DNA of 22,790 bases from a virus, in the IMG/VR virus record IMGVR_UViG_3300040808_001080, positions 1-22,790 of that record, one strand, 5' to 3'. The notes below the pieces were generated by a model that saw only the letters and a program-made list of their open reading frames with translations, was not told where the DNA came from and did no database searches. This document shows positions 2,860 through 22,016 of the stretch, one piece after another. Both the position numbers and the translations under genes were made by a program. Numbering within the stretch: the first letter of the stretch is position 1; every line of letters begins with the position of its first letter.

Positions 2860-3020
2860 TATCTGAACCTGTTGTTGATGCCTTCTGGGCCGAAGAAGTC
2901 GTCGGCCTCCAGATCGAGAAGGGGTTGCTGGAGTTCTTCAACCAGACGCTCCAGCATTTCCTCGTCCATGTTCTCGACCGCGATACGAAAATCTTCCGGA
3001 TCGATGGTCAGGGCCTTCAT
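2859..3020 (-). CDS. Small acidic hypothetical protein, 53 aa
   Basis: A 53-residue frame (begins MKALTIDPEDFRIAVENMDE, ends NNRFR) fits exactly between its neighbours. Its ATG overlaps the upstream stop as ATGA, and its TAA overlaps the next start as TAATG. The protein is acidic and mostly helical in composition. No family is recognised. The tight double coupling is the main evidence that it is real, because the gene is too short to be convincing alone. Confidence 0.7.
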   Translation of the reverse strand: MKALTIDPEDFRIAVENMDEEMLERLVEELQQPLLDLEADDFFGPEGINNRFR

Positions 3021-3526
3021 GCCACCAGATCCTCCAACTTGGCTTCCTCGTAGTTGGGGCCTTTGAGAACCTTGCCGTCTTCACGACGGATCGGTCTCCC
3101 GTCCTCACCCAGCTTCGACATGTTGGAGACATGCACACGATAGAACGCCTTCTGCATGGTCTCGTAGTCGAACGGGATGTCGGTGCGACCGGCCAATTCT
3201 GTGATAGCCTTGTCCGTGGCCATGATACGCTGACCGAGGTCGCTGTCTGGGCTTACCAGAGCCTCGAAATGAGGGACCAGAACTGCGTTCATGCCCACCA
3301 GAACATAGCGAAGGTCGGCAATCTCTTTCAGCAGAGCGGCCTTGTTTTCCGTGGTCTTGTCGGCCAGATAGGCGTCGAGAGCCTCAATCACCTCGGCATG
3401 CTCTTCTTCGATCAAGGTGATCCAAAGAGCGGGGTCCAGAGACGCCTCAAATGTGGACATAAATTCCACCATCAGGGTTCCCTCGAATTCCCGCGCCGGG
3501 GCAGAAATAAACGTCTTGATATCCAT
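3017..3526 (-). CDS. MazG-like / PRA-PH-type nucleoside triphosphate pyrophosphohydrolase
   Basis: 169 aa. Residues 38-75 carry the metal-binding pattern of the all-alpha NTP pyrophosphatase superfamily: Glu41-Glu42-x-x-Glu45, then Glu68-x-x-Asp71 in KEIADLRYVL. The C-terminal part, with VHVSNMSKLGEDGRP and REDGKVLKGPNY, is the typical phage version of the PRA-PH/MazG-like family. These enzymes hydrolyse NTPs or dNTPs to monophosphates and PPi. In phages they are thought to adjust the nucleotide pool or alarmone levels. The gene is first in its unit, preceded by a putative promoter with operator-like inverted repeats and by a copy of the repeated CCTAACAGACC leader, with AGGA as Shine-Dalgarno. 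Its stop overlaps the next start (ATGA). Confidence 0.85.
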   Translation of the reverse strand: MDIKTFISAPAREFEGTLMVEFMSTFEASLDPALWITLIEEEHAEVIEALDAYLADKTTENKAALLKEIADLRYVLVGMNAVLVPHFEALVSPDSDLGQRIMATDKAITELAGRTDIPFDYETMQKAFYRVHVSNMSKLGEDGRPIRREDGKVLKGPNYEEAKLEDLVA

Positions 3527-3541
3527 GTTATATCCTGTTTT

Positions 3542-3552
3542 GGTCTGTTAGG
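3542..3552 (-). repeat. Start-associated leader repeat, copy 1
   Basis: The minus strand reads CCTAACAGACC followed by AAAACAGGA and, after six bases, the ATG of the MazG-like gene. The ACCAAAACAGGA part (3533-3544) recurs upstream of the secreted-protein gene at 13890-13901. Confidence 0.75.
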
Positions 3553-3560
3553 GTAGTCGT

Positions 3561-3610
3561 TAAGGTAACAACGTATGAGCGTTCTACCCCATCGCTGTTA
3601 CCTTAGTCAA
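3561..3610 (-). promoter_or_regulatory. Putative sigma70 promoter with inverted operator pair
   Basis: On the minus strand TTGACT (3605-3610) is followed at 17-18 bases by GTAGAA or TAGAAC (3581-3587). TAAGGTAACA at 3561-3570 and its exact inverse TGTTACCTTA at 3596-3605 form a 10-bp inverted repeat about three helical turns apart, flanking the -10 region. One arm overlaps the -35 box. This suggests control by a dimeric DNA-binding protein. The -10 match is moderate. Confidence 0.55.
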
Positions 3611-5730: not shown

Positions 5731-6579
5731 TTAGGCGGCGTCTTCGAAGTCAGCGTCCAAGTTGCTGTCGCCGTAGTCGATACTGTCGTAGACGTCTGCG
5801 TCACCGTTTTTACGGGCCAGCGCCTTCTTGTAAGCTTCTTCGACCTTGGCGTTGTCGGCCTCGACCATAGCTGTGAAGTGCTTGATGGTCTCGAATGTGG
5901 GAACATCAACCGGTGCCGGTGCCGAGAAGTCAGCTGCGAACTGGATAATGTAGTAAACTACAGAACCGTTCTTCTCACGCTTCGGGGACAGATCGATCCA
6001 ATAGTCCCAGACCATCCGACCATTCGGCAGAGCCTTCATGTACTGCTCTTCGAACGGCATGAAGTTCGAACCCTTGAGACGAAGAACGCAGGGGACGTTC
6101 TCGACCGTCACCTTCTCGCCGTCCTTGGTTTCACCTTCATACGAGACGATGCCGCGAACGAGACGAGAGCAAGTAATGTCCTCGTACTTCTTCTTGGCCT
6201 CTTCCGGCATGTTCTTCCATTCCTGACCGCCCGGTCGACCGCAACGGATAGTGCCATTTGTGTCCCGGAATTCCTGCTGGAACGAGGTGTTCTGCAAGGT
6301 GCGAGAGACCATCTTGTTCTCTTTACCATCGTAGTGCGTGTACTGCAGGTGATGGGTCAGAGGACGGAACCGGACGTTCTTGGCGTAAACCGTCACATCC
6401 TGATCGGTGACGAAGAAGCTTCCGCGAGGGAGGGTTGTGCCGTCCGCGTCTTCATCTTCCATGTTGACCTTAAGCTGCGGAACGCGAGGACCGCTGTTTG
6501 CGGTCGGGTCGGCACCTGCTGCGCCTGCGAGTGCTGCCAGTTCTGCTGCGTTTACAACTGCTACTTCTGTGCTTGTCAT
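5731..6579 (-). CDS. Putative phage single-stranded DNA-binding protein, 282 aa
   Basis: The ATG at 6577-6579 (MTSTEVAVVN) follows GGAG and lies downstream of the promoter at 6608-6636. The longer frame back to 6639 would begin within the promoter and is rejected. An Ala-rich N-terminus leads into a folded middle with beta-like segments (PRGSFFVTDQDVTVYAKNVRF, VENVPCVLRLKGSNF, YWIDLSPK). The last 35 residues are strongly acidic (DADVYDSIDYGDSNLDADFE). An acidic C-terminal tail is typical of phage ssDNA-binding proteins such as T7 gp2.5 and T4 gp32. The position just before a nuclease and a resolvase recalls T7 gene 2.5-3 order. The family is not firmly recognised, so the function is an inference. 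A strong dedicated promoter fits a protein needed in large amounts. Confidence 0.5.
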   Translation of the reverse strand: MTSTEVAVVNAAELAALAGAAGADPTANSGPRVPQLKVNMEDEDADGTTLPRGSFFVTDQDVTVYAKNVRFRPLTHHLQYTHYDGKENKMVSRTLQNTSFQQEFRDTNGTIRCGRPGGQEWKNMPEEAKKKYEDITCSRLVRGIVSYEGETKDGEKVTVENVPCVLRLKGSNFMPFEEQYMKALPNGRMVWDYWIDLSPKREKNGSVVYYIIQFAADFSAPAPVDVPTFETIKHFTAMVEADNAKVEEAYKKALARKNGDADVYDSIDYGDSNLDADFEDAA

Positions 6580-6607: not shown

Positions 6608-6636
6608 ATATTACCGTCACTAAGGTAACTTGTCAA
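6608..6636 (-). promoter_or_regulatory. Strong sigma70-type promoter with operator-like element
   Basis: The minus strand has TTGACA (6631-6636), a 17-base spacer and TAATAT (6608-6613), close to consensus. The spacer holds GTTACCTTA (plus strand TAAGGTAAC at 6621-6629), and TTACC/GGTAA form an inverted repeat (6611-6628). The stop codon of the upstream gene (6633-6635) lies inside the -35 box. It drives the putative ssDNA-binding gene. Confidence 0.8.
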
Positions 6637-7335: not shown

Positions 7336-9602
7336 GCTGCAAACAACTCCTCTAGATTATCATCGATAGGGTGACCGGGCATCTTCACGCCCGGATCTGG
7401 TACTTCTTCTTCGGATAGACGCATCCAGCTCTCACCAGCCTCCATTTCCACGGCCAGAGGGATCGTCATTTCGTAGTCCCAACGATGCTTGATTTCCTCG
7501 TGAACGCCCTGCATCGCCCAAGACAGAGCCGCCTTCACCTTTTCCAGCTCACCCGGATAGACATCGACCACGATGGAGTCGTGAACCGTGATGATCAGGA
7601 GAGACTTGAGCTTATCCTGACGGAAACGGCGCAAAGCCCGGACACAGGCCAGAGGAACAATGTCTCCGGTCGCAAAACCCTGAACAGGGTAGTTGACGAT
7701 GTTCGTCTGGTTGCTGACACGGCCCCCCCGGAAACGACGCACGTTCTTGAACTTGTATTGGCGACCGGAGGGGATTTCGACGATCCCGGTTACCAGAGCG
7801 GACTCACACCACTTCGTCTGCTGTTCCTTCATCCCCTTGTAGATGTTGAAGAACTCTTGGAAGTACTTCTGAACATGTGGAGGCTCAGACGCACCCATAC
7901 CGCCATAGAGAGGGGCAAAGGTGTACGGCTTCGCTGCCTGACGAAGATCTTTCGTGACCTCCGACTCCGGTATCTGGCCGATGATCGTGGCTGTCTGTTT
8001 GTGGGTATCCTTGCCGTTGAAGATATCCTGAATGATCTGCTGATCACCGGACAACTCCCCTGCCCCACGGAACTCGAGGCCTGAATAGTCCACCTCAAGG
8101 ATCAAGCCTCCTTTGAACCGGCTGCGAACAGCGTCCCGGACAGGGAATTTCCCGCCCTTGGGCTGGTTCTGAAAGTTGGGCTTGCTAGAGGATAGGCGAC
8201 CGGTAGCAGCAACCGTCTGGTTGAAGTTAGGGTGCAGGATACCGTCTGGCCGGAGCCAGTACAGGATGCCGTCCACGAACGAGCTGATGTAGGTCGAAAC
8301 AGCGTTCAACCGGATCATCTTCGTCAGGAATTCGACCGCCAGAAGGTTGTCCTTCTCTTGGGCTTTGTAGATCAGCTTCTTGATCGTGTCCTTGTCGGTC
8401 TTGAAGCCACCCACAGCAGCATCAGCTGGTCCGTCAGGGGACAGACGCAGACCGGCTACCTTACCAGAGTCGAGATAGACAGCACCAGCCCCGCTGCAGG
8501 TCGGACACTTGTTCCGATTTTTGTACGGGGTCTTGTCCTTCTTGTATTTCTGGATCGTACCCTCACCACCGCAGGTATGGCAGCAATGGGCCACCTGACG
8601 CTTGGCAATCGTCGTGGTCGCCCGTACAGCCCCCGCGAATTGCGTGGGAGACATCCTAGGCGGATACTTAGGCCTGCCACGGTCGTCCGTCCCGAGATTG
8701 AAGACCTCCTTGTGAAGTTTCTTGTCCTTAACCCTACGGCTGTAGATCACGGCTGATAGGTCGTCGTTAGACGCCAGATTGATCGGGGTGTCACCCATGA
8801 CCTCTTCGACGATTTCGTAGAGGCGCTTCTCAATCTCAGCCTTCTCTGCGCGGAAGTCTTCCCCAACCTGTTCAAGGATTTCCCGCTCGATCTTGATGCC
8901 GTTACCTTCAATCTCGGCCACGAACACGAGCATGTCATTCATCAGGTCACAGACCTGCCAGAGCTTGCCGCTCTCTGGGCGATGAAACTCGATCAGCTGG
9001 TCGATGAAGACTTCGGCACAGGACACGACGTCGGCCTCGGCATACTCCTGCACGATGTCCTTCGGCATTTGCTCGAAGCCGAGCTTCTGCTTTTTGAACA
9101 TGTCGTTGATCAGGTCGGCTTTCTTGGCTGTGACCCGACGACGCTTGGCTGTCTCCTCTAGTGACAACGGCATCTTCTGACCTCGAGCGAAGATATACTC
9201 TCCGATCATGGTACAGAACACCAACTCAGGGGGATTAAACCCTGTGCAATTGAGCCATTGGAAGTCGAACTTCGCGTTATGCGCTACGAACAGGTCGGCC
9301 TTGGCCAACGCTGCCTGCAGAGCGATAGGCGTATCTGGGTGTGATACATCATTATGGTAATACCATGAGGTGCTTACAGGCGGAACTTCTCCTTCTGCCA
9401 GAGTTTTCTTGAGGGCCTTCAACTGATCTAGGTCTTTGGGGTTGACCTGCAGATGCAGCCAGTGGCCTGATACGAGTTTGTTCTTGGGGTGGAAGGGGGA
9501 CGGATCGTCATCCCTCTTACTGTCACCCCGTTGTACGGTCGTCTCTGCGTCGAACACCACGACGTTCAAGAGACGATCTTGGAAACGGGAAATGTCTAGC
9601 AT
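7332..9602 (-). CDS. polA: Family A DNA polymerase (Pol I type) with 3'-5' exonuclease and a DnaJ-like zinc insertion
   Basis: 756 aa, the phage replicative polymerase. The exonuclease domain shows Asp18-x-Glu20 (FDAET), Asp113 (NAKFDFQ) and Asp191 (YAEAD). The polymerase domain shows motif A around Asp505 (EVDYSGLEFR), motif B Arg554-x3-Lys558 with TFAPLYGG, and motif C His674-Asp675-Ser676 in TVHDS. There is no 5'-3' exonuclease domain. Between exonuclease and polymerase, residues 340-374 carry two CxxCxGxG-like modules (CHTCGGEG and CPTCSGAG), which look like a DnaJ-type zinc ribbon and are unusual for this family. The start is ATG 9600-9602, two bases after the stop of a 27-residue membrane peptide gene, with AGGA as a weak ribosome site. 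The stop overlaps the next gene as ATGA. Confidence 0.95.
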   Translation of the reverse strand: MLDISRFQDRLLNVVVFDAETTVQRGDSKRDDDPSPFHPKNKLVSGHWLHLQVNPKDLDQLKALKKTLAEGEVPPVSTSWYYHNDVSHPDTPIALQAALAKADLFVAHNAKFDFQWLNCTGFNPPELVFCTMIGEYIFARGQKMPLSLEETAKRRRVTAKKADLINDMFKKQKLGFEQMPKDIVQEYAEADVVSCAEVFIDQLIEFHRPESGKLWQVCDLMNDMLVFVAEIEGNGIKIEREILEQVGEDFRAEKAEIEKRLYEIVEEVMGDTPINLASNDDLSAVIYSRRVKDKKLHKEVFNLGTDDRGRPKYPPRMSPTQFAGAVRATTTIAKRQVAHCCHTCGGEGTIQKYKKDKTPYKNRNKCPTCSGAGAVYLDSGKVAGLRLSPDGPADAAVGGFKTDKDTIKKLIYKAQEKDNLLAVEFLTKMIRLNAVSTYISSFVDGILYWLRPDGILHPNFNQTVAATGRLSSSKPNFQNQPKGGKFPVRDAVRSRFKGGLILEVDYSGLEFRGAGELSGDQQIIQDIFNGKDTHKQTATIIGQIPESEVTKDLRQAAKPYTFAPLYGGMGASEPPHVQKYFQEFFNIYKGMKEQQTKWCESALVTGIVEIPSGRQYKFKNVRRFRGGRVSNQTNIVNYPVQGFATGDIVPLACVRALRRFRQDKLKSLLIITVHDSIVVDVYPGELEKVKAALSWAMQGVHEEIKHRWDYEMTIPLAVEMEAGESWMRLSEEEVPDPGVKMPGHPIDDNLEELFAA

Positions 9603-10804: not shown

Positions 10805-10821
10805 TCCTTTGGTCTGTTAGG
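10805..10821 (-). repeat. Start-associated leader repeat, copy 2
   Basis: The minus strand reads CCTAACAGACCAAAGGA. The TAA inside it is the stop codon of the upstream gene, and the AAAGGA end is the ribosome site of the coiled-coil gene. No -35 or -10 pair is visible in front of this copy. Confidence 0.8.
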
Positions 10822-10999
10822 TCGTCTTTGAGTTGAGCATTTCGCCGTATACTTGGTGCGGCTCTAAGTGAGGGAACAGTCTTCTAGCTACCTCGTCAGC
10901 GTCTTCATCTTCGAACCCGGAATAAAGCTCTACCACTGCAGGAAGGTAGACATTTGCCCCCTCAACGAAGACAGTGATCATCATATTCTTACGCGACAT
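10817..10999 (-). CDS. Hypothetical protein, 60 aa
   Basis: Not recognised. The ATG at 10997-10999 (MSRKNMMITVFVEGAN) overlaps the helicase 3' end by 11 bases. A longer frame to 11041 would lie further inside the helicase and is not needed. It has a beta-like start (MMITVFVEGANVYLPAVVEL) and an acidic helix (GFEDEDADEVARRLFP). The stop codon TAA lies within the leader repeat of the next gene. Confidence 0.65.
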   Translation of the reverse strand: MSRKNMMITVFVEGANVYLPAVVELYSGFEDEDADEVARRLFPHLEPHQVYGEMLNSKTT

Positions 11000-12200
11000 A
11001 TCGGGAAATCTCCGGCTGGATCTGGGCGAGAATCGTTCCATGCCACCCGGACAGCTTGTTCTTTGATACGGTCAGGTATCGGGTGATGCTCTCGTCGTCC
11101 TGATCCTTTCCGATACCGATGATCAGGTCTGCTTCGGCGGCTTTACCGATTTTTGAGCCTTCCATCATGGAGTAGTCGAGGCGGGTACGGCCACTGGCGT
11201 CGTTGGAAGCCTGAGAGACACCGATCAAAGCACAGTTGTGGCGCTTTGCCATTTCCCGTGCCTGCCGGTACAGCTCACGAAGACGCTCGTGACCCTTCTC
11301 GAATTTACCATCAACCGATACCTTATCGAGCTGGTCGATGATAACGACGTCAGGCTTCTTCTTCGCCAGATAGGCGTTCACCTTCTCGAGCGTCCAATCC
11401 TGAATATCCTTGAACACCAGCTTGTCACGGGTCTTGCCCTTGTAGATGGCGATGGCTTTCTCGGGGTCGTCTTTGATCTGTTCCCCGGTGAAGCCGGTGA
11501 CACACTGGTAGGCACGGACAACCGTCCGTTTGGTGGCCTCTTCGTTTCCTAGGATCACAACCTTCTTGCCCTGATCAGTGAAGCCATCCGGACCACAGCA
11601 GAGGGATACAATAAAGGCCGTCTTGCCCGTCTCTGGTGTGGCAAACACGATCCCAAACTCTTGGGGGCCAATACCGTAGACGCGATTAGACAATGTCGGG
11701 ATGTTGAACTTGAACCGGTGGTCATCCCCAAACATATCGAGGAGGTCTTCCAGCTCCTGAGACGTGTCCTCGCCAAAGTCGTCCGCTACAAACCCGTCAC
11801 CAACGGACTCTACCAGCTCCCGCAGTTGGGCCATAACAGCGTCACTGCCTTCCGAAATTTCGAGGCCCATCGAAGCGATCTTCTTGCCTGTATCCCGACG
11901 CCACAGAGCTGTGATCGTGTCTGGGACAAGCTCTCCTGTCAGCGCCTGCGCATCCTCGATATCTTCAACCAGCTCTCGGAAGTCGTTCTTCTGGGCTGCA
12001 GTCGCCACCGGGTTCTGGGCCGACCAAAGGGCCATAAGATCGCCGGTCGTAAGGTCTTTTCCGTATTTCTCATGGGCATCAACCAAGATGCGGTAGACGT
12101 CCCTGACATCCTCCGCAAACAGGCTGGCCCGAAGCCGTTCCTTGGACTCTTCGTATACCGAATGAGTCAGGAGGCTTTTCACCATCGCTGTATCGATCAT
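10989..12200 (-). CDS. DnaB-like replicative helicase
   Basis: 403 aa. An N-terminal helical region (residues 1-165) precedes a RecA-fold helicase core. The core has Walker A ATPETGKT (187-194), the LGNEEATKRTVVRAY segment, Walker B VVIIDQ (285-290, Asp289), motif LIGVSQAS (about 326-332) and the C-terminal region with KNKLSGWHG. It unwinds duplex DNA ahead of the phage polymerase, working with the Toprim primase encoded just upstream as a separate protein. It starts at ATG 12198-12200 and is preceded by two operator-like elements and a terminator from the primase unit. No clean -35/-10 pair is visible in front of it. It heads the cluster that contains the polymerase. Confidence 0.9.
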   Translation of the reverse strand: MIDTAMVKSLLTHSVYEESKERLRASLFAEDVRDVYRILVDAHEKYGKDLTTGDLMALWSAQNPVATAAQKNDFRELVEDIEDAQALTGELVPDTITALWRRDTGKKIASMGLEISEGSDAVMAQLRELVESVGDGFVADDFGEDTSQELEDLLDMFGDDHRFKFNIPTLSNRVYGIGPQEFGIVFATPETGKTAFIVSLCCGPDGFTDQGKKVVILGNEEATKRTVVRAYQCVTGFTGEQIKDDPEKAIAIYKGKTRDKLVFKDIQDWTLEKVNAYLAKKKPDVVIIDQLDKVSVDGKFEKGHERLRELYRQAREMAKRHNCALIGVSQASNDASGRTRLDYSMMEGSKIGKAAEADLIIGIGKDQDDESITRYLTVSKNKLSGWHGTILAQIQPEISRYVA

Positions 12201-12212
12201 TGTTCACCTTCG

Positions 12213-12234
12213 TAAGGTATTGCTTAGGGTAACA
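12213..12234 (-). promoter_or_regulatory. Operator-like pair upstream of the helicase gene
   Basis: The plus strand shows TAAGGTAT at 12213-12220 and TAGGGTAACA at 12225-12234, with ATTGCT/AGCAAT arms (12219-12224 and 12233-12238) forming an inverted repeat around the second site. It resembles the operator family found at other promoters here. The sigma70 hexamers are poor, so activation or another start site is possible. Confidence 0.45.
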
Positions 12235-12314: not shown

Positions 12315-12518
12315 TTACGAAGTGCGGAACTTCATCGCCCGCAGATCGGGACGCTTGTCACCACGACGTTCCTTGATATCGCAGTCATAGAACACGACGC
12401 GAGGGTTGCCAATGGCAAGCTCCTTCATAGCCGCTTCCAGACGTGCCTGTTCCTTGGCGATGTCTGTCAAACTTCCGGGGAAGTCATAATCAATTACTAT
12501 TACACCACGAGCTTTCAT
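12315..12518 (-). CDS. Hypothetical protein, 67 aa
   Basis: The ATG overlaps the primase stop (ATGA, 12515-12518). The order is strand (GVIVIDYDFPGS), helix (LTDIAKEQARLEAAMKELAI), strand (PRVVFYDCDIKERRG), then a basic end (RPDLRAMKFRTS). This compact pattern recurs in small phage proteins beside primases and helicases, but no function is known to me. It is the last gene before the terminator at 12255-12285. Confidence 0.65.
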   Translation of the reverse strand: MKARGVIVIDYDFPGSLTDIAKEQARLEAAMKELAIGNPRVVFYDCDIKERRGDKRPDLRAMKFRTS

Positions 12519-13291
12519 AGCAGTCTCTCCAAATCTTTTTGCGTTGCGTATTTCAAGTCTTCCTCGAGAAGAACAACTCTAGTAGGAACCCGGCTTTCAA
12601 ACATCCCCTTTAGCCGAAGGGCCTTCCTAGAAGCGTCCTTATCGAGAGCAATTACCACCTCATTAAAACGCCTTAACTGTCTTCTAGCTAGGGTAGTAAC
12701 ATGGGTTCCTAGTATCGCGCAACCTGAACATTTAGGGAACATGCGAGAAACTGAACACGCAGATGCCACATCCTCGACAACTACCGCAGTACCTCCCGTG
12801 CCGATCTGCATTATACCATCCACTTCGCCATAGACTTTCCACTTAGGTTTCTGACCAGAAAGAGACCGAGCAACACATCCCTCTCCGTCTTTCGTGTAAA
12901 ACGCCACCCGATTATCCGCCGGTAAGTACCGCACCTTTACTAGACCTTGTTCCACCGCGAACAGAGAATTTACCGACTCCAGATACCTGATCGCAGCAGG
13001 GTGGTTCCTGACATTTGAGGTAATTACTGGCAGGGGAGTACTCTTCCTATTCGGAGTCCTTTCCTCCGATTGCTCAAGTCGTTTCCGAATTGTCTCGCTC
13101 GACATTTCTGTGTCCACTGTTCCCTTTGATGGACAAGAAGCTTTATAGCAGTTCCAAAAGAGTTTTCCAGACACACGATCAGCTGTAAATGTTTTTCCAC
13201 CACCACAGAAGGGGCAGTTTATCCGCCTACTCTCACCCTCGCGGATTTTGAGGCTTTCCACAAACTCTTTTTGCTCCCGGAAGGTGGCCAT
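12515..13291 (-). CDS. DNA primase with N-terminal zinc ribbon and Toprim domain
   Basis: 258 aa from the ATG at 13289-13291. An earlier ATG at 13303 lacks a ribosome site, and the GGAGAG after it serves the later start. The N-terminal zinc ribbon has Cys26, Cys29, Cys48 and Cys53 (CPFCGGGK, NCYKASC). The Toprim region shows Glu173 in VVVED and Asp217-x-Asp219 in ALDKDAS, the metal ligands for RNA primer synthesis. It is shorter than bacterial DnaG and lacks a fused helicase, so it probably works with the DnaB-like protein encoded next. It has its own TTGACA promoter. The gene seems somewhat richer in A/T than its neighbours. Confidence 0.85.
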   Translation of the reverse strand: MATFREQKEFVESLKIREGESRRINCPFCGGGKTFTADRVSGKLFWNCYKASCPSKGTVDTEMSSETIRKRLEQSEERTPNRKSTPLPVITSNVRNHPAAIRYLESVNSLFAVEQGLVKVRYLPADNRVAFYTKDGEGCVARSLSGQKPKWKVYGEVDGIMQIGTGGTAVVVEDVASACSVSRMFPKCSGCAILGTHVTTLARRQLRRFNEVVIALDKDASRKALRLKGMFESRVPTRVVLLEEDLKYATQKDLERLL

Positions 13292-13322
13292 AGTACTCTC
13301 CATGTAGGGAAAACGCCCGAGG

Positions 13323-13381: not shown

Positions 13382-13523
13382 GTGGATATGTAAGTTATTG
13401 ATGGAAAAGGAAAGGATCTGAACGCTTTGGTTGCGGGTTCAAGTCCTGCCGGGCCTACCAACCGCCTGATTTTGTTGATTTTTTTAATGTGAAAATCCGT
13501 GGATACCACCCAAAAATATCCAC
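13382..13523. other. Candidate phage attachment site (attP): tRNA core with arm-like repeats
   Basis: The non-coding stretch 13353-13553 holds a tRNA 3'-end fragment (13433-13460). It is flanked by GTGGATA at 13382-13388 and 13499-13505 and the inverse TATCCAC at 13517-13523. CCGTGGATA is a 9-base direct repeat (13380-13388, 13497-13505). A tRNA 3' end plus short repeats on both sides is the usual design of attP for tyrosine integrases. The integrase gene is about 7 kb away, which is unusual, so the call is tentative. Confidence 0.55.
13433..13460 (+). other. tRNA 3'-end fragment (T arm, acceptor strand and CCA)
   Basis: T stem GCGGG (13433-13437), loop TTCAAGT (13438-13444) and CCTGC (13445-13449) pair as in a tRNA. 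They are followed by acceptor strand CGGGCCT, A and CCA (13450-13460). The matching 5' acceptor strand AGGCCCG is absent upstream, so it is not a complete tRNA. The adjacent upstream bases (from about 13414) resemble the end of an anticodon arm. The isotype cannot be stated safely. Confidence 0.8.
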
Positions 13524-13553: not shown

Positions 13554-13577
13554 AAAAGAAAAGGCCCCGAAGGGCCT
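13554..13577 (-). terminator. Rho-independent terminator, copy 1 of a 29-bp repeat
   Basis: The minus strand has AGGCCC, a TTCG tetraloop, GGGCCT and TTTTCTTTT. It ends the unit carrying the secreted-protein gene. The 29 bases 13554-13582 are identical to 14983-15011. Confidence 0.9.
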
Positions 13578-13600
13578 GATCTAAGATACTTTTTGTTCTG

Positions 13601-14103: not shown

Positions 14104-14480
14104 CACAGATCCTCGTATTCCGGGACCGGGCTTTCGAGGTCGTACAGATCTGCAATGTCCTTAATTTTCCGGTCCCAATAATCCCGGAAATCCCCATCGT
14201 CTCCTCTGTAGTAGGAGTCATGTGCGTTTTGTAGAGACGCCAGAAGAGCGTACGAAGGCTCCATCCACCCCGGAATTCCGTAGTGATCCCAAATAGCGTG
14301 GAGACCTTTCCACTGCCGTTTGTCCCATTCTCTTGCGGTATCGTCGTCAAGCAGACACCCTACCGCACATGCGGTGTTGTCCACGCCGCGATAGCGGCAC
14401 GCACCTGTCGCCGTGGTAGATTGCCTGCCCTGATCGGAGATACGCTCGTAGACCGTGTCCAAAACCTCTTGAGGGGTCAC
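14103..14480 (-). CDS. Hypothetical protein, 125 aa (GTG start)
   Basis: No ATG fits. GTG at 14478-14480 overlaps the upstream stop as GTGA and gives a protein beginning (M)TPQEVLDTVYERISDQ. An upstream in-frame ATG at 14621 would lie deep inside the previous gene. Residues about 23-47 contain ATGACRYRGVDNTACAVGCL, with three Cys, followed by charged helices. This Cys/Gly segment recurs in phage proteins of unknown function. A metal site is possible but unproven. Confidence 0.65.
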   Translation of the reverse strand: MTPQEVLDTVYERISDQGRQSTTATGACRYRGVDNTACAVGCLLDDDTAREWDKRQWKGLHAIWDHYGIPGWMEPSYALLASLQNAHDSYYRGDDGDFRDYWDRKIKDIADLYDLESPVPEYEDL

Positions 14481-14917
14481 GCCGAGACCTCCTCTTTTGC
14501 CGGTGCGATGATCGACCAGTCCACCTCGCCGGTCGCAATCAGGTGACGGATCACCTTGGCGCAGTTTTCCGGGTTGAGGTCTTCTGGTGAAATGCGATGC
14601 GTCCAAGAGTCGGAATCCCACGGATAAAACAGGTCGTGTGCAACATCGCTGTCCAAACCCACGTCGTCTCCTGATAAACCGTAGTCAAGATCCGCAGGTG
14701 TCCCTGTTTCCCGTGAGAACTGCTCCAAGGCACCTCCGATACACATCACAGATCCGCACTCACCTACCCAAGGCATTGCGGCATCGTCTTCACACATAGC
14801 GTCCTTCTCAGACACCCAGTACTCCATGTGAAAGCCTGTCACCCGGCCATCATCTGTCACATGCTTCGCGCCTCCCTCGAGCCACTCAGCAACCTTAGTC
14901 AATGCTTCTACGTTCAT
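14477..14917 (-). CDS. Hypothetical acidic protein, 146 aa
   Basis: It starts at ATG 14915-14917 (MNVEALTKVAEWLEGGAKHV) after AGAGGTG and the repeated leader. The longer frame to 14977 would run through the promoter. The protein is acidic, with Cys residues near GECGSVMCIGGALEQF. This N-terminus plus central Cys segment is a recurrent pattern in phage proteins of unknown function. First gene of a four-gene unit with its own promoter. Confidence 0.65.
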   Translation of the reverse strand: MNVEALTKVAEWLEGGAKHVTDDGRVTGFHMEYWVSEKDAMCEDDAAMPWVGECGSVMCIGGALEQFSRETGTPADLDYGLSGDDVGLDSDVAHDLFYPWDSDSWTHRISPEDLNPENCAKVIRHLIATGEVDWSIIAPAKEEVSA

Positions 14918-14930
14918 GATTTCACCTCTA

Positions 14931-14941
14931 GGTCTGTTAGG
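14931..14941 (-). repeat. Start-associated leader repeat, copy 3
   Basis: The minus strand reads CCTAACAGACC, followed by TAGAGGTG and the ATG of the 146-aa gene. Its first base is exactly 30 bases after the TTGACA box, which places it at the likely transcription start. Confidence 0.75.
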
Positions 14942-14948
14942 TGCGTAA

Positions 14949-14977
14949 CCCTTACTATTACCTTTGTGAGGTGTCAA
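14949..14977 (-). promoter_or_regulatory. Promoter of the 14917-13601 unit
   Basis: A perfect TTGACA (14972-14977) is followed at 17 bases by a weak TAAGGG (14949-14954). Operator-like AAAGGTAA lies in the spacer (plus TTACCTTT, 14958-14965). The weak -10 may mean that an activator is needed. Confidence 0.6.
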
Positions 14978-14982
14978 TAGAA

Positions 14983-15006
14983 AAAAGAAAAGGCCCCGAA
15001 GGGCCT
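14983..15006 (-). terminator. Rho-independent terminator after thyX, copy 2 of a 29-bp repeat
   Basis: AGGCCC, TTCG, GGGCCT and a T-rich tract on the minus strand, five bases beyond the thyX stop. Identical over 29 bases to the terminator at 13554-13582. Confidence 0.9.
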
Positions 15007-15010
15007 GATC

Positions 15011-15754
15011 TTAGTACTCCCCATGCACCAGAGCCGCCCAGCTGACCGGGAACAGCTCTTTCATCTGCTCGTCGATCTGGTTGGCGATAATCCGGGTCTC
15101 TTCCTGTGCGTCTGTCCGGATGCGGTGCTGACACATCTTGGCAATCGCCCCCAGAGAACCAGACCAGTACCATTCGGTAATAAGGTTCAGAGGCAAGACA
15201 CCTCGAGCCTGTTCCTCGCAGACACCCAGACCAAGAAGGCGCTTATATGCCTTGTACGCAGCATTATGAAGATCCATCATTTCACTTCTAGCGTCGTGGT
15301 TGAGACCCCAGCACAGATGCTCTCCAGAACCCTGCTTCTTGTCTGTAGCCTTAGAACGAAACTGCTCCGGCACGAAGAAGTCTGGCTCAAACTCGACATA
15401 CCGACCAGAAATCTCATTCCACGGCATGTACTCGTGCTTCACCAGCTGACGGGCGACATAGATCGGCCCCTTGCAGTGGAAGGTGGCGAAGGCATGGTTG
15501 AACGGGGACTTGTGCAGAGGGACGTTCCGGAAGTCTTTCAGGATCGCTTCGATTTCCTCCGCTGCGTCTGCCTCGAGCATAACTTCGTCTACGAGGTTAC
15601 CGAAGTCCTTCGAAGACATCCCACGAGCCAAGAACTTGATCAGGTTGGCGTCTTTGTCGGTAAACTCTTCGGAGCGTTTCCCGTATGAGACCCTTGCACT
15701 TTGCACCACGGTAAGATCACTTCCCATATGGTCAATCAGTTTTGCTTCGATCAT
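15011..15754 (-). CDS. thyX: Flavin-dependent thymidylate synthase, divergent signature
   Basis: 247 aa from ATG 15752-15754, which overlaps the upstream stop as ATGA. A longer frame to 15799 is not needed. ThyX makes dTMP from dUMP with FAD, NADPH and methylene-tetrahydrofolate. The family motif is visible as RQLVKHEYMPWNEISGRY (residues 102-119). Asn113-Glu114, Ser116, Arg118 and Tyr119 are kept, but the usual Arg-His-Arg is Lys106-His107-Glu108. The RIRTDAQEETR segment near the C-terminus matches the conserved R-x4-AQxE region. The variant signature suggests a phage subfamily rather than a dead enzyme, but activity is unproven. It is last in a long unit, before a strong terminator. Confidence 0.88.
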   Translation of the reverse strand: MIEAKLIDHMGSDLTVVQSARVSYGKRSEEFTDKDANLIKFLARGMSSKDFGNLVDEVMLEADAAEEIEAILKDFRNVPLHKSPFNHAFATFHCKGPIYVARQLVKHEYMPWNEISGRYVEFEPDFFVPEQFRSKATDKKQGSGEHLCWGLNHDARSEMMDLHNAAYKAYKRLLGLGVCEEQARGVLPLNLITEWYWSGSLGAIAKMCQHRIRTDAQEETRIIANQIDEQMKELFPVSWAALVHGEY

Positions 15755-16956: not shown

Positions 16957-16973
16957 TCCTTTGGTCTGTTAGG
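16957..16973 (-). repeat. Start-associated leader repeat, copy 4
   Basis: The minus strand reads CCTAACAGACCAAAGGA directly after the stop of the upstream gene. AAAGACAC follows and then the RNA ligase ATG. It is base-for-base identical to the copy at 10805-10821. Confidence 0.85.
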
Positions 16974-17283: not shown

Positions 17284-17655
17284 TCACGCCCCGAAAAATG
17301 GGAAGAGGTGGATCTGGCCGGTGCTGTCTTCCTGAACAACAATAGACCGGGGTTCAGCTGCATATCCGGGGGACTCGATCACCGTGATCTGTTCAGGTGT
17401 CCAGTTGTCCACGTCCTTCTCCAGTTCGATCACGACGTCGATCCCGCTCCACGACAGAGTGAACGTCTCGTCGCCCGAATGGACGGTCTTGTTCTGGAAG
17501 GTGATGGTGGCTGCTGCGCCTTCCATCGTAGGCTCGTGCAGCTCGACATAGCTGACATGGCCATGGTCTCCGGGGAAGTCCCCACGCCACACCTTGACGC
17601 TGTCAAAAGAAGAGGCAGAGGCCATAACAACCCCTGCCATCAATAGTGCTTTCAT
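17284..17655 (-). CDS. Hypothetical protein with possible signal peptide, 123 aa
   Basis: Begins MKALLMAGVVMASASS, a short hydrophobic N-terminus with one Lys that could be a signal peptide cleaved near Ala14-Ser16, though it is shorter than usual. The remainder is mostly beta-like and acidic (VKVWRGDFPGDHGHVSYVEL, AATITFQNKTVHSGDETFTL) with no Cys. Not recognised. A strong GGAGG precedes the ATG, and the gene has its own promoter and a leader-like CCTAATAGACGG. If exported, it would act in the periplasm. Confidence 0.6.
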   Translation of the reverse strand: MKALLMAGVVMASASSFDSVKVWRGDFPGDHGHVSYVELHEPTMEGAAATITFQNKTVHSGDETFTLSWSGIDVVIELEKDVDNWTPEQITVIESPGYAAEPRSIVVQEDSTGQIHLFPFFGA

Positions 17656-17663
17656 TGGTGCCT

Positions 17664-17675
17664 CCGTCTATTAGG
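17664..17675 (-). repeat. Start-associated leader repeat, diverged copy
   Basis: The minus strand reads CCTAATAGACGG, running into the GGAGG ribosome site. As at 14931-14941, it begins exactly 30 bases after the -35 box. Confidence 0.6.
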
Positions 17676-17682
17676 TACGGAG

Positions 17683-17711
17683 TTGTTACCTTAAGAGACA
17701 CCCTTGGTCAA
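17683..17711 (-). promoter_or_regulatory. Internal promoter with operator-like element
   Basis: TTGACC (17706-17711), 17-base spacer, TAACAA (17683-17688) on the minus strand. TAAGGTAACA (plus TGTTACCTTA, 17684-17693) covers the -10. The stop of the upstream gene (17708-17710) lies inside the -35 box. Confidence 0.65.
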
Positions 17712-20666: not shown

Positions 20667-21815
20667 TCACCCCAACAGCTTCGTGATATCTGGCTGCTGG
20701 ATTGGTTTGGTTTCAGTTTTCTTCGATGCCCTACCCGTGAGGCTGACACGCTTCTCCATCCCGCGCTGGGCGATGCCACCCCCAAGCTGGACGTAGGTAT
20801 TCAGGATCTGGCGGGTCTTGTGTCCGGTGACAGCACGAAGCTCGTCTTCGGTGGCACCCATTTCAGCCAGCTCTGTGGCCCCTGTCCGACGCATGTCAGC
20901 CACCCAATGGTTCTTGGGAAGTCCAGCATGCTCCCGGATCAGTTGGGCCTTACGCGCCAATAAACGGCGGTCAAATGGCTTGCCTGTGACCGGGTAGATG
21001 AACATGAAGTCGTCGTCTTTGCCACGCACACGACCAGCCAGACGGGCTTCGATGTCAGGGGTCGAAGACAGTCGCAGATGTGTACCTGTCTTGCTCTGGG
21101 TGATCTGGAACCGGCCACCCTGATAGGCACTCCATTTCAGGTTCCTGATATCCACAGGACGCTGACAGAGCTGGTGACACACGATCAGGATATCCCCGAC
21201 CACAGACAGGTCCAGATCGTCGGCTGCTTCCATGAACCGGGTGATCTGCTCCGGTGTCCAGAGAACGGTTCTCGAGGGCGTGGACTTGCATTTCACACGG
21301 GTGAAAGGGTTACCTGTGACCTTCTGCTGGTCGAAGGCGACATTCCAGACGACTTTCATAACCTTGACAGTCTGGTTGGCTGCATGCTGGCTCTTTTCCT
21401 TCCAGATCGTCGTGTGAAAGGACCGAGCCATCGTCACATCGACTGTGGAGGCCTTGAGCTGTCCAAAAGGCACCTTGTATCCCGGCAGGACCGTCTCCAG
21501 AGCCAGTTTGATCTGTGTCCGGTAGGCCTGCTGGCTGTTTGGCTTGAGTTGGAAATAGTTTGCAGACTGGTAGTAGTTCGAAACCAGACCGGCCACGGAT
21601 GTAGGATCGATCTTGATCGTCCCTGTCTCTTCCAGACGGCGCTTGGTCTCAAACTCGTCTGCGACCTTCTTGGCATAGCGGACTGCAGCAGCCCGATCCG
21701 GACCAAAAGACTGATATGTGCGACCAGTGACATCACGGACATACTTTGGTGGGTTCACGACGTAGGACGTGCCAGCCTTCCGGTCACGCTCTTCTAGGTA
21801 TTTGATTTTCTTCAT
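20667..21815 (-). CDS. int: Tyrosine-family integrase / site-specific recombinase
   Basis: 382 aa. An N-terminal arm-binding-like segment (1-75) and a core-binding SAM-like helical domain (75-165) precede the catalytic domain. Catalytic residues: Arg219 (CQRPVDIRNLKW), Lys242 in the beta hairpin (SKTGTHLR), Arg309 (ADMRRTGATE), His332 (TGHKT) and Tyr341 (ILNTYV). The first position of the HxxR box is Ala306 instead of His, which occurs in some integrases. The enzyme would insert the phage genome at a host site, plausibly a tRNA gene given the fragment at 13433-13460. The region upstream holds several operator-like sites, but no clear sigma70 pair. Confidence 0.92.
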   Translation of the reverse strand: MKKIKYLEERDRKAGTSYVVNPPKYVRDVTGRTYQSFGPDRAAAVRYAKKVADEFETKRRLEETGTIKIDPTSVAGLVSNYYQSANYFQLKPNSQQAYRTQIKLALETVLPGYKVPFGQLKASTVDVTMARSFHTTIWKEKSQHAANQTVKVMKVVWNVAFDQQKVTGNPFTRVKCKSTPSRTVLWTPEQITRFMEAADDLDLSVVGDILIVCHQLCQRPVDIRNLKWSAYQGGRFQITQSKTGTHLRLSSTPDIEARLAGRVRGKDDDFMFIYPVTGKPFDRRLLARKAQLIREHAGLPKNHWVADMRRTGATELAEMGATEDELRAVTGHKTRQILNTYVQLGGGIAQRGMEKRVSLTGRASKKTETKPIQQPDITKLLG

Positions 21816-21835
21816 TCTTCGTCTCCATACCTTTC

Positions 21836-22016
21836 TTAGGGTAAGAAGTAGCCGAAGTTATGAGGCTTATCAACCCTTATTTTTACCTTAGTAGTGGTAT
21901 TTTTTTCTTGACGGATTGTTTGGATATGTGTACCCTGCGAGGGCGTTCCGCCCGAGCCAATACCCTATAAGGGTAGGCTTAGTTGAAGACACTAGGACGT
22001 CTTAGATTTACCCTAG
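21836..22016. promoter_or_regulatory. Operator-rich intergenic region upstream of the integrase
   Basis: The 276-base non-coding stretch 21816-22091 contains TTAGGGTAAG (21836-21845), TTACCTTAG (21883-21891), the palindrome TACCCTATAAGGGTA (21961-21975) and TTACCCTAG (22008-22016), all of the TAAGGTAAC family. GGGCG/CGCCC (21941-21951) and AAGAC/GTCTT (21986-22002) form further small hairpins. This is the densest cluster of such sites in the window and may control int and/or a divergent transcript. Confidence 0.55.
21908..21936 (+). promoter_or_regulatory. Possible divergent promoter
   Basis: TTGACG (21908-21913), 17-base spacer, TACCCT (21931-21936) on the plus strand. No plus-strand gene follows. 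A transcript would meet a terminator about 130 bases on. The -10 box is weak. Confidence 0.35.

Follow-up and report, generated by a model that had tools for sequence, protein, structure and literature searches.

Tandem half-sites with lineage-specific spelling at predicted promoters of an HMO-2011-type marine phage: candidate operators of a phage-encoded repressor

The window analysed here, which is the whole of a 22.8-kb virus fragment (the 22,790-nt record IMGVR_UViG_3300040808_001080), is by its gene content the early arm of a podovirus of the HMO-2011 type, a marine phage. All called genes lie on the minus strand and include, in the HMO-2011-type order, those for integrase, ThyX-like protein, primase, helicase, polymerase, 282-aa gene, MazG-like protein and ribonucleotide reductase; the gene calls, and with them the coding mask, were set by hand and leave 1240 non-coding bases (5.4%). 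The group is marked by a DNA polymerase A with an inserted partial DnaJ domain that contains two CXXCXGXG motifs (PMC9038755), and both are present in the translation of the window polymerase as CHTCGGEG and CPTCSGAG. The module of integrase, primase, helicase and polymerase with ribonucleotide reductase downstream, likewise a trait of the group, is also found; in the group a structural and packaging module also occupies the other strand, and the window is a 22.8-kb fragment.

The nearest isolates are the Roseobacter phages CRP-3, CRP-212, CRP-235 and CRP-738, whose polymerases are 50-57% identical to that of the window. Gene order, the atypical DNA polymerase, the integrase and CYTAR-type sites at the same promoters are common to them and the window, as is an attP-like tRNA end that precedes the primase gene; what differs is the spelling of the sites. 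CRP-3 integrates at tRNA-Met (PMC6918029), and at least one relative is therefore temperate. Upstream of the window primase gene, as in CRP-3, the plus strand carries at 13424-13457 a tRNA-like 3' half that comprises the T arm and the acceptor end (Rfam tRNA score 16.8 bits, below the cut-off) and is likely the attP core. A 32-bp terminator-like sequence occurs twice in the window, at 13554-13585 and 14983-15014, the two copies being 97% identical. The following genes have operator-like sites in their promoters or upstream regions:

3017-3526, minus strand: MazG-like pyrophosphohydrolase gene (PHROG 671, 5e-24)
5731-6579, minus strand: 282-aa gene after the DNA polymerase gene (35-38% identity to the CRP orthologues)
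10989-12200, minus strand: replicative helicase gene (46-56% identity to the annotated CRP helicases)
12515-13303, minus strand: DNA primase gene (PHROG 47, 7e-19)
20667-21815, minus strand: tyrosine integrase gene (Pfam PF00589, 1.5e-8; 32-37% identity to the CRP integrases)

The motif that recurs upstream of these genes, and is present at almost all predicted promoters of the early genes, is real and far above chance. The decamer TAAGGTAACA, with one mismatch allowed, has 7 matches in the window compared with 0.70 in shuffled sequences, none of 100 shuffles reaching 7, and three copies are exact (3561-3570, plus strand; 3596-3605 and 17684-17693, minus strand). The initial annotation had listed the motif or a close variant at twelve places and had described two exact 10-bp arms facing each other at 3561-3605, all of which are present. 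TARGGTA occurs 16 times, with 12 copies in non-coding DNA where 0.9 would be expected (P = 1e-12), and RRGGTA 50 times, with 21 non-coding copies against 2.7 expected (P = 4e-14), values that are optimistic because the site definitions were refined after inspection of the sequence. The enrichment is strong but not absolute: that all sites are non-coding is true of those listed earlier, but the list omits four coding copies of TARGGTA, one at 838 within the gene for ribonucleotide reductase (TAAGGTAACC) and the others at 8457, 11319 and 12689.

Although decamers occur, a half-site of 6-7 bp, mostly arranged in tandem with a 12-bp step, describes the repeated unit better than the 10-bp operator first proposed. 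With the half-site written as RRGGTA, six promoters carry two same-strand copies at a distance of exactly 12 bp (3550/3562, 12214/12226, 13342/13330, 14959/14947, 17699/17687 and 21884/21872). Random placement in the same intergenic segments yields 0.22 such pairs on average and six in none of 5000 runs, although this P value too is optimistic, the half-site pattern for the spacing test having been refined post inspection; with an earlier and broader pattern 12 was also the commonest spacing, self-overlaps aside. Window sites outside the tandems form dyads (6611-6628, 21828-21843 and 21961-21975) or are single half-sites. The sites are arranged as follows:

3550-3570, plus strand: tandem AGGGTA-GTCGTT-AAGGTAACA with a 12-bp step, just downstream of the likely MazG-like start site (start codon 3526, minus strand)
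3585-3605, minus strand: TAAGGTAACA directly after TTGACT (-35, 3610-3605), with a weaker GGGGTA 14 bp further on
6611-6628, plus strand: dyad TTACC-gtcactaa-GGTAA inside the spacer of TTGACA(6636)-N17-TAATAT, the promoter of the 282-aa gene
12205-12234, plus strand: tandem AAGGTA-TTGCTT-AGGGTAACA (12214-12234) and an opposed half-site at 12205, between the likely -10 and the helicase start codon
13330-13347, minus strand: tandem AGGGTA-TCTGCT-AAGGTA, filling the spacer of TTGACA(13352), the primase promoter
14947-14964, minus strand: tandem AAGGTA-ATAGTA-AGGGTT after TTGACA(14977), accessory gene 14477-14917
17684-17704, minus strand: tandem AGGGTG-TCTCTT-AAGGTAACA after TTGACC(17711), accessory gene 17284-17655
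21828-21843, plus strand: dyad TACCTTT-CT-TAGGGTA between the likely -10 and the integrase start codon (21815)
21872-21889, minus strand: tandem AAGGTA-AAAATA-AGGGTT, overlapping TTGATA (-35, 21873) of the integrase gene
21961-21975, no strand assigned: perfect palindrome TACCCT-TAT-AGGGTA, integrase upstream region
22009-22015, minus strand: single half-site TAGGGTA, integrase upstream region

Across the MazG-like promoter the minus-strand site at 3596-3605 faces the plus-strand tandem at 3550-3570; a third, weaker half-site (TGGGTA) lies 12 bp upstream of the primase tandem, and the integrase upstream region holds a single AGGGTA at 21931.

Promoters in the window are predicted, with -10 elements and start sites assigned by eye, and the sites overlap those of the integrase, primase, helicase, 282-aa and MazG-like genes and of two accessory units. 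A TTGAC hexamer stands beside them at five promoters (3610, 6636, 13352, 14977 and 17711), whereas the integrase promoter has TTGATA instead and that of the helicase neither; the earlier statement that most sites lie in or beside a TTGAC promoter therefore needs qualification for these two genes. The placement relative to the promoter elements varies considerably: sites occupy the spacer (282-aa gene, primase), follow directly upon the -35 (first MazG-like site), cover the -10 (accessory genes at 14917 and 17655), lie past the start site (helicase, second MazG-like site, second integrase site) or reach upstream into the -35 (integrase), and they use both strands although all called genes are on the minus strand. 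Of the promoters in the scanned region, that of the 282-aa gene alone reached a high score in a strict sigma-70 scan. An exact 11-mer, CCTAACAGACC, occurs four times on the minus strand (3542-3552, 10811-10821, 14931-14941 and 16963-16973), each copy closely followed by a likely ribosome-binding site and start codon, with variants at 17665 and 20163; it resembles the start-associated sequences that exist in some mycobacteriophages.

Related phages bear sites at the corresponding promoters; the core of these sites, TARG, is constant, and the bases that continue it depend on the lineage. CYTAR-type sites lie between TTGAC and -10 at many orthologous promoters (about 50 relatives), at the promoter of the 282-aa gene many relatives keep the site in the same position relative to -35 and -10, and a block of the GTTACCYTAA type at the helicase start is kept in ten related phages. 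When all three-base continuations of TARG were tested in each genome, the word with the highest non-coding enrichment differed by phage, namely TARG+GTA in the window (12 of 16 non-coding, P = 1e-12), TARG+TGC in CRP-3 (8 of 16, P = 1e-5), TARG+TGT in CRP-212 (13 of 24, P = 1e-9) and TARG+GGG in CRP-235, where the figure is inflated by terminators; the same test gave no clear word in CRP-738. The window word itself recurs in a 28-kb relative, G002, in which 11 of 21 copies of TARGGTA are non-coding (2.4 expected, P = 5e-6, gene starts set by hand) and none of the other TARG words tested is enriched. Tandems with the 12-bp step are present in G002 (AAGGTATTTCTTAAGGTA) and L095 (AAGGTATCAACAAGGGTT), L011 and L091 also have the tandem at a TTGACA promoter upstream of the primase gene, and among the phages nearest to the window L102, L095, L097 and L100 carry the window word not just at the helicase gene but also at the integrase, primase or 282-aa gene. 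CRP-212 has both a candidate tandem operator (TAACTAAGTGTC) and several sites that are near-perfect dyads (ACACYTAACTARGTGT). Sites in the complete genomes of CRP-3 and CRP-212 also precede the coat gene, a DUF1127 gene and the gene that adjoins a conserved 0.8-kb gap, so that in complete relatives early and late units alike bear them. The gap itself (about 0.8 kb without annotated genes, L005:48353-49212) is conserved in place, with matching gaps in CRP-212, CRP-235 and CRP-738, contains the shared block GGTCATTTACGGT...GTATACG...GGGTACCCCC and is possibly a packaging or end site.

Across the family, in 66 dereplicated phages, the upstream regions of different genes share better 9-base words within a phage than they do with GC-matched other phages (P = 1e-4, 2e-6 and 5e-3 for three gene pairs). 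Most of the best-shared words are without the TARG core, and part of the within-phage similarity is therefore due to other shared promoter features; in two of the three gene pairs the core was not significantly commoner in the best-shared words within phages than between them. For direct repeats the 12-bp step gives a clear peak only in front of the integrase gene and a weak one elsewhere, and a family-wide scan for inverted arms revealed no preferred gap, which implies that the dyads are local rather than general. Searches with the integrase, polymerase and 282-aa protein as single queries against viral contigs returned one distant polymerase match and none for the other two, and in bacterial genomes a search for HMO-2011-type prophages gave 24 matches, all distant (26-34% identity), among which no group member was recognised.

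The reading that we favour, with a probability of roughly 0.6, is that the sites are operators of a single lineage-specific DNA-binding protein that the phage encodes and that most likely serves a temperate phage of the HMO-2011 type as its immunity repressor. Its subunits would bind half-sites of the form TARGGTA(AC), head to tail with a 12-bp step at most promoters and head to head at some, and the bound protein would cover the -35, spacer, -10 or start site and thereby exclude RNA polymerase. One repressor could in this manner keep the integrase, primase, helicase, 282-aa and MazG-like genes and the two accessory units switched off together, and in relatives it may also silence the coat gene and other right-arm units. 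Each lineage would possess its own repressor and operator spelling around the constant TARG core, as expected of separate immunity groups. CRP-3, CRP-212 and CRP-235 share one host strain, FZCC0040, and because phages of one host strain differ in spelling the binding protein is most likely encoded by the phage. Two features general to immunity-repressor operators are found, overlap with early promoters (here predicted ones) and a specificity that varies from lineage to lineage but not within one phage, CRP-738 lacking a clear word. The operator reading is well supported by comparison; we infer binding and lysogeny from sequence, and repression in a lysogen by an immunity repressor would be the most economical mechanism. 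The proposal of the initial annotation that one regulator governs replication, integration and accessory genes is accordingly supported by the sites on promoters, their placement retained in relatives and their spelling, but its parallel with stoperators is not supported.

Among the alternatives the one that survives best, although we deem it unlikely, is that the phage encodes an activator of lytic growth, or a regulator of its timing, to which the sites belong, for instance a CII- or OmpR-like protein that recognises head-to-tail half-sites. Phage lambda CII and the OmpR/PhoB-type activators use direct repeats at about one helical turn, a tandem geometry like that seen here, and since only one promoter in the scanned region passes the strict sigma-70 scan the others could need help. 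HMO-2011-type subgroups IV to X, moreover, are without lysogeny genes (PMC9038755). Activator sites, however, hold a fixed distance and face to the promoter, whereas the present ones, in either orientation, are found ahead of the hexamers, over them, in the spacer and beyond the start site, and in complete relatives they are not restricted to early or to late units. Steric repression is favoured over activation because the offset and orientation of the sites vary.

The conserved position at the promoter of the 282-aa gene would also suit a lineage-specific promoter part read by RNA polymerase or a phage-modified polymerase, an explanation rendered improbable by sites that elsewhere in the same phage follow the start site or precede the -35 in the other orientation, and by phages of one host that differ in their motif. 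Global regulators of alphaproteobacteria use short repeated sites and the window sites adjoin host-type TTGAC promoters, as if the phage exploited a host regulator; this is highly improbable given that CRP-3, CRP-212 and CRP-235 differ in their words despite a common host, the spelling tracking the phage lineage. The weak or single sites (21931, 22009) and the presence of int and the attP-like tRNA fragment within the window might point to a mixed origin, in which a few real operators are joined by fortuitous matches and by arm-type sites of the integrase close to int and attP. This is hardly credible, because the enrichment and the exact 12-bp spacing are seen again at genes remote from int and attP and in another phage, G002.

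As to the identity of the putative repressor, none of four complete relatives, two longer contigs and the window itself yielded a cI-type HTH_3 protein over the cut-off, and the published accounts of CRP-3, CRP-212, CRP-235 and CRP-738 that were consulted (including PMC9038755 and PMC6918029) report neither a repressor nor a regulatory site. The earlier suggestion that the regulator is encoded outside the window agrees with the scanned window genes, among which no regulator was recognised, although no regulator gene emerged from the relatives searched either. Several candidates were considered and rejected: a helix-turn-helix and coiled-coil protein (CRP-3 gp56, CRP-212 gp55; weak HTH_23 match) with no homologue detected in CRP-235, CRP-738 or G002; a Fis-like protein seen in G002 only; an 85-aa protein of all four CRP genomes, with a low-confidence model and no fold match; a 67-aa protein encoded between primase and helicase, with a single helix and too conserved for a regulator that changes specificity; and two window genes upstream of int that lack a family match. 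The 67-aa gene (12315-12518, minus strand) lies just before the helicase gene in the window and in many relatives, and its product has a conserved MKAR start and a KERRGD...MKFR end and no Pfam, PHROG or fold match. The Fis-family DNA-binding protein (L337:3258-3554, plus strand; PF02954, 2.5e-6) is encoded in a right-arm operon of a TARGGTA-carrying relative. Proteins encoded on the minus strand at L009:147-704 and L010:1914-2579 combine an N-terminal helix-turn-helix with a variable recognition helix, a coiled coil of variable length and a conserved C-terminal tail (AERLAECRNRGFWARVF), and their genes adjoin a DUF932 gene. A tentative extension of the repressor hypothesis would be an undescribed family without a recognisable cI-type domain that acts on head-to-tail half-sites with a 12-bp step at early and late promoters, and whose half-site (TARG plus a lineage code) has diversified into many separate immunity groups, even for phages that share a host strain.

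HMO-2011-type phages are a dominant marine group and among the most abundant phages known in the ocean, and at least one of them integrates. The putative operator code would predict which phages are mutually immune and which promoters are silent in a lysogen, and provides a bait for finding the regulator; its spelling points to separate regulatory specificities in phages that co-occur on one host. The cI/cro operators of phage lambda (OL/OR) are 17-bp dyads in two control regions, next to which the repressor gene lies. Like them, the sites described here are repeated sequences that overlap the -35, the -10 and the start site and would keep polymerase out; they differ in that head-to-tail half-sites dominate the window and stand upstream of seven genes, with no cI-type gene seen. 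The lambda activator CII recognises TTGC-N6-TTGC with a 10-bp step at one fixed place around the -35; both systems have a pair of short half-sites that point the same way across an N6 gap, but the sites described here have a 12-bp step, their place varies, and no repeat is centred on the -35 with the CII step. The stoperators of L5-group mycobacteriophages run with transcription and lie mostly away from promoters (PMC6550527), are 13-14 bp long without dyad symmetry and bind a monomeric repressor that stops elongation. The window sites, for which this parallel had first been drawn, are not of this type because their orientation is mixed and they are linked to promoters: both strands are used, often as 12-bp tandems or dyads, and sites cluster upstream of genes, five with TTGAC hexamers. 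L5-type sites number 20-30 genome-wide, compared with 12 non-coding TARGGTA in the window fragment, 13 TARGTGT in complete CRP-212 and 8 TARGTGC in CRP-3. What the two systems have in common is many short sites over one phage genome and a lineage-dependent consensus, which in Cluster A mycobacteriophages such as L5 and Bxb1 matches the immunity groups (PMC6550527), and which in the HMO-2011-type phages suggests that each lineage may have its own master switch.
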